NCBI GenBank assembly: GCA_012520725.1
Contig: JAAYNQ010000036.1
Location: 1 to 34,000 of the forward strand
From: Syntrophomonadaceae bacterium
GTDB lineage: Bacteria > Bacillota > Syntrophomonadia > Syntrophomonadales > Syntrophomonadaceae
Direction: 5' to 3'
DNA length: 34,000 nt
Each line of letters opens with the position of its first letter. The stretch's first letter is position 1. Shown in pieces: positions 23,869 through 25,979 of this stretch. Position numbers and translations under genes: made by a program. The notes beneath the pieces are model-generated. The model ran no database searches and had not been told where the DNA came from. It saw nothing but the letters and a program-made list of their open reading frames with translations.

Positions 23869-24306
23869 ATGAACAGAAGGCTTAAATGGATAGTTATCGC
23901 TTTAATACTGGTATTTCTAGGAGTAATGATATATAAATATTATTTGGCTGCTCCTGCACCACAGCAGGAGATAGATTCCAATGTCTTATCTGCCGAGCAG
24001 GAAATAAATAGTGGGTTGGAAAACAAGGAGAGTATGTGGATATTGTTTGTCTCTGCCAGCTGTGAGCCCTGTGCCGAGATGCATGAAATATTCAAGCAGT
24101 TAAAACCAAAATATTCAGGAAAAGTGAAGTTTATAGAAGTTGACGTTAATGATAGAGCCAATTTTAAGCTAGTGCAGCAATATAAATTACAGTATGTCCC
24201 CACCACCTTTATCGTGGATAGTCAGGGGAATACATCCTATCATAATGTAGGGGTAATAGCGCTGGATAGGCTACAGGCCGAGCTGGACCGGGTGGTGAGG
24301 CAGTAA
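23869..24306 (+). CDS. Membrane-anchored thioredoxin-like protein
   Basis: The protein has 145 residues. Residues 8-26 form an N-terminal membrane anchor after a basic MNRRLK start. The thioredoxin fold follows, with the active site CEPC at 65-68 and the cis-proline loop YVPTTF near 112-117. The redox domain therefore faces outside. GGAGGAGGAAGC precedes the ATG. The next gene, a CcdA-type membrane electron carrier, overlaps by one base (TAATG). The pair resembles ResA/CcdA, in which CcdA reduces an extracytoplasmic thioredoxin with electrons from the cytoplasm. No cytochrome c maturation genes are present here, so the target may be other extracytoplasmic thiol proteins. Confidence 0.85.
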   Translation: MNRRLKWIVIALILVFLGVMIYKYYLAAPAPQQEIDSNVLSAEQEINSGLENKESMWILFVSASCEPCAEMHEIFKQLKPKYSGKVKFIEVDVNDRANFKLVQQYKLQYVPTTFIVDSQGNTSYHNVGVIALDRLQAELDRVVRQ

Positions 24307-24992
24307 TGGAAGCCTGGCTTAACCAGGTGGCACCGCAATTATTAAAAGATATTTCAATATACGCTTATGGACTGGTTTTCTTGGCCGGGCTGGTCAGCAG
24401 TATTGGTCCCTGTAATATTACCATGGTCCCGATAATAGTAGCCCACGTAGCCGGGAAAGAAGCTACCCGTCGGAGAAGCTTTGCCATATCCATGGCCTTT
24501 ATGCTGGGTACCGCCACCACCTTTATGCTCTTGGGTATATTTATTGCCGTGGTAGGGGGTATCTTCGGAACCAGCAGGAGCATCATATATTATTTAGTGG
24601 CCAGTGTTTGTGTAATAATCGGTTTAAATCTCTTAGGAATACTCAGGTTAAACATTAACTTTGGTGGTAATCTTCTTAATCGTACGGCTAATCTAAGCGG
24701 GTTAGGCGGCAGTTATTTACTGGGCCTGACTATGGGGCTGGTAGGTTCACAGTGCGGCACCCCAATGCTCCTGGTGATTTTATCCCTGGCCTTGGCCAGC
24801 GGAAAATGGCTATATGGTGCCAGCTTACTCTTTGTATATGCATTGGGGCGTGGAGTGCCAGTAGTATTAGCAGGAACATTTACCGGCATACTGAGCCGTA
24901 TGCAGCTTTTCGCAGCTACGAGCCAGGCCCTGGAAAGAGTAGCCGGTTTAATAATTATCCTGGTGGGAGGGTATTTTTTCTGGATAGCCTGA
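24306..24992 (+). CDS. CcdA-family transmembrane electron carrier
   Basis: This 228-residue protein has about six hydrophobic segments and belongs to the CcdA/DsbD-beta family, which moves reducing equivalents from cytoplasmic thioredoxin across the membrane. The two redox cysteines are Cys36 in SSIGPCN and Cys150 in GSQCGTP, in the first and fourth segments as expected. VYALGRGVPVVLAG is a further family segment. The gene begins within the stop of the thioredoxin-like gene, so the two products are made together and probably form one redox pathway. The gene symbol is withheld because several CcdA-like paralogues exist in this class. Confidence 0.88.
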   Translation: MEAWLNQVAPQLLKDISIYAYGLVFLAGLVSSIGPCNITMVPIIVAHVAGKEATRRRSFAISMAFMLGTATTFMLLGIFIAVVGGIFGTSRSIIYYLVASVCVIIGLNLLGILRLNINFGGNLLNRTANLSGLGGSYLLGLTMGLVGSQCGTPMLLVILSLALASGKWLYGASLLFVYALGRGVPVVLAGTFTGILSRMQLFAATSQALERVAGLIIILVGGYFFWIA

Positions 24993-25030
24993 ATCTTTCA
25001 TAACAATAACCAAAGAAGGGGAGATCATAG

Positions 25031-25189
25031 TTGGATATTGGTGTGATCGGTGGAGCAGATGGGCCAACCTGTATTGTTATAAGCTCCAGTACTGATTGGT
25101 GTACTGTTGCCGCCATAGCAATTATATTTATTGCAGGTATTATTATTTGGAATATTGGAAAGGGAAGAAGTAAATCGGGCCGATCTTAA
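25031..25189 (+). CDS. 52-residue microprotein with decarboxylase beta-subunit signature
   Basis: This short ORF starts with TTG, seven bases after GGGGAG. It begins MDIGVIGGADGPTCIVI, which carries the IGxIGGADGPTxI signature of the beta subunits of Na+-translocating decarboxylases (oxaloacetate, malonate and glutaconyl-CoA families). A hydrophobic stretch, VAAIAIIFIAGIIIW, at about residues 26-40 is one membrane segment, followed by a basic tail NIGKGRSKSGRS. A full beta subunit has over 370 residues with several membrane segments, so this is not a pump by itself. It may be a decayed fragment or a stand-alone regulatory peptide; the good ribosome binding site and clean reading frame favour a gene. 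It lies 38 bases after ccdA. Confidence 0.6.
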   Translation: MDIGVIGGADGPTCIVISSSTDWCTVAAIAIIFIAGIIIWNIGKGRSKSGRS

Positions 25190-25253: not shown

Positions 25254-25979
25254 ATGAAGAAGTATATTGAAAAGGTTTATCTCCGGGAATACCCCGGGGC
25301 AGATTCATACCTATACCGGCTTCCGGTAGTTAAAAACCTTTGGAAAATTGGGGGATTGGATTTCACCAGTAGTGTAATTATTTTTGTCGGAGAGAATGGC
25401 ACCGGCAAGTCTACCTTACTGGAAGCTATGGCCATTGCCCTGGGATTTAACCCGGAAGGCGGCAGTAGAAATTTTCATTTTGCCACCAAGGATACCCACT
25501 CCGATCTGAATGAGTATCTGCGAATTAGTCGCAGCAATTATTTCCAAGATGGTTTTTTCCTGCGTTCAGAAAGCTTATACAATATCTCATCATATATTGA
25601 TGATAGAGATCCTGAAATCATATACAGTTACGGCGGCAAATCCCTTCATCATCAATCCCATGGTGAAAGTGTATTGACATTGGTTCAAAATCGCTTTGGA
25701 GGAAACGGCTTATATATTTTGGATGAACCCGAGGCGGCACTTTCCCCCTCCAGGCAGCTAACACTAATGGTGGAAATGAATCATTTGGTGAAAAACAACT
25801 CCCAATTCATTATGGCCACCCATTCTCCCATTTTAATATGTTATCCCGGAGCACAGCTGGTTGAACTTACCGAGGACGGAATTAATACGCTTGAGTATCA
25901 AGAAACAGAGCACTTCAAGCTCACTAAGCAATTCTTAAATAACCCGGAACAAATGCTAAGGTATTTGTTGCAGGATTGA
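25254..25979 (+). CDS. SMC/ABC-type ATPase (COG3910-like)
   Basis: This 241-residue soluble ATPase has Walker A GENGTGKST at 46-54, an ABC-signature-like SHGES near 136, Walker B LYILDEPEAALSP near 155 and an H-loop ATHSP near 185. It lacks a coiled-coil arm and any transport partner, so it is not a transporter subunit. It fits the family of stand-alone predicted ATPases with an AAA_23-like N-terminus. Such proteins are common in Firmicutes, often as single genes, and their role is unknown. Defence roles are reported for some related ABC-ATPases, but no partner nuclease or effector lies next to it. A GAGGAGTGCCAGGCAG site precedes the start. Confidence 0.8.
   Translation: MKKYIEKVYLREYPGADSYLYRLPVVKNLWKIGGLDFTSSVIIFVGENGTGKSTLLEAMAIALGFNPEGGSRNFHFATKDTHSDLNEYLRISRSNYFQDGFFLRSESLYNISSYIDDRDPEIIYSYGGKSLHHQSHGESVLTLVQNRFGGNGLYILDEPEAALSPSRQLTLMVEMNHLVKNNSQFIMATHSPILICYPGAQLVELTEDGINTLEYQETEHFKLTKQFLNNPEQMLRYLLQD

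Follow-up and report, generated by a model that had tools for sequence, protein, structure and literature searches.

Behind a thioredoxin-ccdA gene pair, the 34,000-nucleotide stretch of Syntrophomonadaceae DNA analysed here (contig JAAYNQ010000036.1, hereafter the window) holds a short gene whose 52-amino-acid product, MDIGVIGGADGPTCIVISSSTDWCTVAAIAIIFIAGIIIWNIGKGRSKSGRS, carries the MDIGVIGGADGPT peptide, one membrane helix and a basic tail (Table 1). The original prediction of a 52-codon ORF with a ribosome binding site, an N-terminal signature and one membrane segment was confirmed by reading of the ORF and by hydrophobicity; its start, placed at 25021, had to be moved to the TTG at 25031, the former position falling inside the ribosome binding site. 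Since a TAG stop lies immediately 5' of this TTG, 25031 is the sole start retaining the entire motif. The protein has a single hydrophobic stretch (residues 24-42, mean KD 2.48), and the positive-inside rule suggests that its N-terminus faces outwards. An AlphaFold model built from three sequences places strands at residues 2-8 and 11-17 ahead of the helix, at low confidence (mean pLDDT 67). The ATPase encoded downstream (241 amino acids) is weakly similar to the effector ATPases of retron/PtuA type, and may be a stand-alone OLD-like ATPase.

Table 1. Features of the microprotein locus, in window positions.
Feature	Position	Strand	Remarks
Membrane-anchored thioredoxin-like gene	23869..24306	+	Upstream, probably co-transcribed; not conserved as partner
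CcdA/DsbD_TM gene	24306..24992	+	38 nt upstream of the microprotein; not conserved as partner
Ribosome binding site AAGGGGAG	25016..25023	+	7 nt 5' of the TTG; comparable sites precede most relatives
Microprotein ORF	25031..25189	+	52 codons, TTG start, single-pass, predicted N-out/C-in
18-residue IGGADGPT module DIGVIGGADGPTCIVISS	25034..25087	+	Residues 2-19; limits are conservation boundaries among carriers
Membrane helix	25100..25156	+	Residues 24-42; AlphaFold helix 23-44
Basic C-terminal tail	25157..25186	+	Net +4; predicted cytoplasmic
AAA_15/AAA_21 ATPase gene	25254..25979	+	Downstream of the microprotein; not conserved as partner

Sequence comparison indicates that positions 25031-25189 are a real gene and no relic. 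Its status as a gene, as opposed to a chance reading frame, arises from three observations: a relative 73-76% identical exists in another genus, the differences between the two are richest at third codon positions, and about ten further microproteins share the same layout. The closest relative, of 53 amino acids, comes from a Syntrophomonadaceae MAG (G031, also L071), from which the window ORF differs at 8, 7 and 17 first, second and third codon positions, respectively. The further single-helix microproteins were recovered with a consensus query in 398 Bacillota genomes, including G802, G572, G705, G689, G737, G782, G666 and G691; others occur in G446 and, in degenerate form, in G641. Members are 47-62 amino acids long, most have a ribosome binding site before the start, and all follow one plan: an acidic or neutral N-terminal part that contains the module near the start is followed, after 9-13 residues, by the single helix and then a basic tail. 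Having this layout and its own start codon with a ribosome binding site, the window ORF is, as judged from sequence, a true member of a one-helix microprotein family of anaerobic Bacillota.

The neighbours of these relatives, whose inspection had been proposed along with the search for similar short ORFs, are unrelated genes that vary from one member to the next (guaB, ggt, map, purC/purF and others). Across families, no conserved neighbourhood was found, as ggt, map, yheC/D-like genes, purC/purF, guaB and purA differ between lineages. In three separate lineages, a carrier of the module adjoins a purine synthesis gene, lying between purC and purF, behind guaB or next to purA (L073:6001-6147, L124:4811-4966, L125:5139-5294 and L067:399-701), which may be due to chance.

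At the locus itself, an interaction with the adjacent CcdA system had also been suggested. Such a role in the thioredoxin/CcdA redox system, with Cys14 and Cys24 facing it, would agree with the common strand, the 38 nt that separate the ORF from ccdA and the position of both cysteines in the protein's outer part (25070-25072 and 25100-25102). However, neither the cysteines nor the neighbourhood are conserved: CcdA relatives are present in 28 of the 54 genomes of the window's family, and the microprotein is absent behind ccdA in every relative locus read, among them two that share both the genus and the thioredoxin-ccdA pair of the window. Besides, the closest relative, in G031, stands on another contig than ccdA. 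The synteny thus contradicts a CcdA partner, which was dropped as a candidate and which we regard as most improbable. The same loci bear on the idea that the ORF is the remainder of an oadB gene once located at this place. A sub-threshold match to the OAD_beta model speaks for such a relic, but the relatives' ccdA loci that were read contain no oadB and no oadB remnant, the ORF displays a signature of selection with its own start and ribosome binding site, and dozens of comparable carriers exist. Synteny and codon pattern together rule out this origin, whose probability we consider next to negligible.

The match in question, to Pfam OAD_beta (PF03977), covers residues 3-32 only (E=1.9e-4) and reaches 21 bits, below the curated cut-off of 31.6 bits, and the TIGR01109 score of 19.8 lies far below the 190.6 bits of NCBIfam. 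No family model in Pfam, NCBIfam or PHROGs exceeds its cut-off, an unpublished model elsewhere being possible, and no description was found in the literature on GGADGPT or on small decarboxylase-like proteins. When the organism's own genome was searched with the PF03977 profile, the microprotein was the sole match in the window's contig; a full-length beta subunit (402-aa open frame) was detected on another contig, in a complete oad operon with alpha, gamma-like and biotin-carrier genes beside it. The signature does therefore stand alone, as had been noted, its own genome's oad genes being located elsewhere. No alpha, gamma or biotin-carrier genes adjoin the microprotein, and carriers were never seen beside oad genes in the loci read.

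In the Salmonella OadB, the peptide forms the tip of the helical hairpin H1, where Asp203 is a Na+ ligand, and the Na+ sites also need Ser382 and Asn412 (PMC7274780). Alignment to the OadB structure 6iva brings the microprotein peptide onto the GGADGPT of the H1 tip, with the ligand Asp present, in agreement with the earlier statement that the signature corresponds to the Na+-binding region of full-length subunits. While OadB (PF03977, TIGR01109; PDB 6iva/6iww) has the identical IGGADGPT peptide with Asp203 at this tip, the full-length subunit comprises ten helices and two hairpins, whereas the microprotein possesses a single helix and lacks the second hairpin, Ser382 and Asn412. Their likeness ends with the 18-residue module. 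When compared by hmmsearch with the OadB helix T5, nearly all microprotein helices score within the range of shuffled sequences, the likeness being one of composition only; an origin as an excised H1b-T5 piece of OadB was rejected, since shuffled sequence comes as close to T5 as the helix does.

The idea of a decarboxylase-specific signature fails for this reason, the helix being unlike the one that follows in OadB, and also because the peptide recurs in many unrelated proteins. A survey of 150 genomes of the family of G446 (Oscillospiraceae, according to a related record and an isolate match) and of further carriers yielded the 18-residue consensus [SD][IV]G[IV]IGGADGPT[AS][IV][FI][VI][TSA][GS] in at least a dozen unrelated protein kinds of anaerobic Firmicutes. 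Barnase-type RNase lipoproteins (PF00545; L072, L140 and L162) carry it at differing distances from the lipid cysteine; HAAS proteins (L157, L166, L082, and L218 from Subdoligranulum variabile) between helices; a PepSY/RsgI_M protein between repeats; a YhfC protease within a loop; and a many-helix membrane protein at its extreme C-terminus. It is also found in a DUF1294 protein, an ABC-2-like permease, an XRE regulator (HTH_3) with a membrane anchor, other lipoproteins, a Cu_amine_oxidN1 protein and a soluble family of 218 amino acids. In a family of about 500 amino acids (L210-L212, L214, L215 and L176), one tested member of which gave no Pfam match, the module lies near the C-terminus and the Thr of GGADGPT is often Ile or Val. 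The window's own family contains a membrane-anchored carrier of 422 amino acids (G044). Some small carriers exceed the Pfam cut-off though they are not pump subunits. Small helix-module-helix proteins of about 85-103 amino acids (L035:4843-5154 and L067:399-701) pass the Pfam OAD_beta threshold, and annotation would name them decarboxylase beta subunits. L066 is a fragment of an oadB whose frame is broken.

The positions occupied by the module, namely N-terminal tails, the residues behind lipoprotein cysteines, interdomain linkers, loops and a C-terminus, are accessible ones. In a soluble carrier, it belongs to a tail segment predicted with very low confidence, and a fold search with this low-confidence model returned no meaningful match. 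Two soluble carriers keep the module at an overall identity of 38%. Taken together, the accessible positions, the low-confidence segment and this retention are more in keeping with a short linear motif for recognition than with a structural core. Alternatively, GGADGPT could bind Na+ or another cation by itself, thereby turning its carriers into Na+-responsive proteins. The Asp that acts as Na+ ligand in OadB is retained in the carriers, most of which are located at or outside the membrane. However, Ser382 and Asn412, needed in OadB, are absent here, a flexible 18-residue tail makes a poor Na+ site, and soluble carriers exist, so that such an autonomous cation loop seems unlikely.

Among carriers, conservation is sharply confined to -5 to +12 around GGADGPT; in OadB it reaches further in both directions. 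Position -2 is V in 46% of carriers versus I in 100% of OadB. DGPT is invariant partly because this pattern served to collect the carriers; degenerate versions (GGADGTT, GSADGPT, GGADGQT and GGADGPV) were encountered as well. The alignments indicate a consensus particular to the carriers. The synonymous positions of the module vary freely among them. With silent positions free and the peptide kept, the target of selection is the peptide; copying of a DNA word has not taken place. The IMG/VR pattern matches L080, L083, L084 and L090, which look like chance matches in non-coding frames, were excluded from the codon table; they remain in the 43-row logo, which they blur slightly. A functionless origin, by a mobile DNA word or by repeated copying of an oadB segment, would account for the very different hosts and for the shifting place of the module among related lipoproteins, but is at odds with the freely differing synonymous positions, with the carriers' own consensus and with the module being retained in the soluble pair of 38% identity, and we hold it to be highly unlikely. 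A mobile word at the DNA level was discarded, the codons being too free, as was a phage or plasmid origin, for which weak matches only were obtained, partly to full-length oadB or to unannotated contigs.

As for the pump itself, full-length or nearly full-length OadB is encoded in all 16 small-carrier genomes examined, compared to 104 of 199 genomes drawn from the phylum (Fisher p 6e-5), and, within the G446 family, in 16 of the 19 genomes whose carrier was confirmed versus 63 of the 131 without one (Fisher p 0.003); these p-values ignore phylogeny, and counting about 11 separate families brings the value to about 8e-4. Such co-occurrence would also arise if the carriers derived from oadB. In G967, carriers are present but OadB is missing, although the main contig alone accounts for 2.55 Mb of the roughly 2.6 Mb genome; a pump in the same genome is thus not strictly required for the module. 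G905 and G984 likewise have carriers without OadB. The earlier proposal that the microprotein regulates or interacts with a decarboxylase encoded elsewhere thus holds as far as the decarboxylase on another contig is concerned, co-occurrence being the one observation that links it to the pump. In its most direct form, this proposal would have the microprotein imitate the OadB H1 tip and dock in or beside the pump, in order to inhibit or stabilise it. The identical peptide around the Na+ ligand Asp203 and the presence of OadB in each small-carrier genome examined are consistent with mimicry. Nevertheless, the helix resembles the post-H1 helix of OadB in composition only, RNase lipoproteins, regulators and soluble proteins contain the module as well, the G967 carriers have no OadB beside them in the genome and carriers never adjoin oad genes in the loci read, which makes a pump regulator of this kind distinctly unlikely.

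The explanation that we favour, and to which we would grant about an even chance, takes the module to be a short motif for recognition or docking, of which the microprotein would be a minimal anchored display, with the pump as leading candidate partner. The microprotein family would present the 18-residue module on the external side of the membrane, where one common partner would read it as a short linear motif, the various carriers thereby bringing it to the partner's site of action and the microprotein representing the minimal membrane-anchored form. On the ground of co-occurrence, this partner may be the biotin-dependent Na+ pump containing the same peptide, or a factor serving it. It counts against this explanation that carriers seem to occur on both sides of the membrane, which would oblige a single reader to work on either side, and that no gene consistently adjoins the carriers among the inspected neighbours of relatives.

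Short sorting or recognition tags common to unrelated proteins, such as LPXTG and PEP-CTERM, are well known. Similarly to the module, they are short conserved peptides on unrelated proteins, often with a membrane anchor and a basic tail, suggesting a common reader. They are, however, C-terminal and precede the anchor of an exported protein, whereas the module is N-terminal, internal or C-terminal, in exported as well as soluble proteins, and does not take the form of a motif ahead of a C-terminal anchor. To our knowledge, no enzyme dedicated to reading it has been described. Bacteria also produce single-pass regulatory microproteins of about 50 amino acids, with one helix and encoded by a stand-alone gene, to which the window protein corresponds in each of these respects; unlike them, it carries a module common to an ion pump and to many other proteins.

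The peptide, hitherto known solely from the ion site of a Na+ pump, is revealed as a module in its own right, present on at least a dozen unrelated protein kinds in anaerobic gut and digester bacteria. This explains why short ORFs, lipoproteins and regulators can match decarboxylase beta-subunit models, and the spread of the module predicts a reader. In a broader reading, which is possible and still rather doubtful, GGADGPT would be the address of a recognition system in anaerobic Bacillota, with one reader and many carriers, OadB sharing the module or being its origin and the microprotein its minimal ligand. If this were true, Na+ energetics would be linked to unrelated membrane, exported and soluble carriers.
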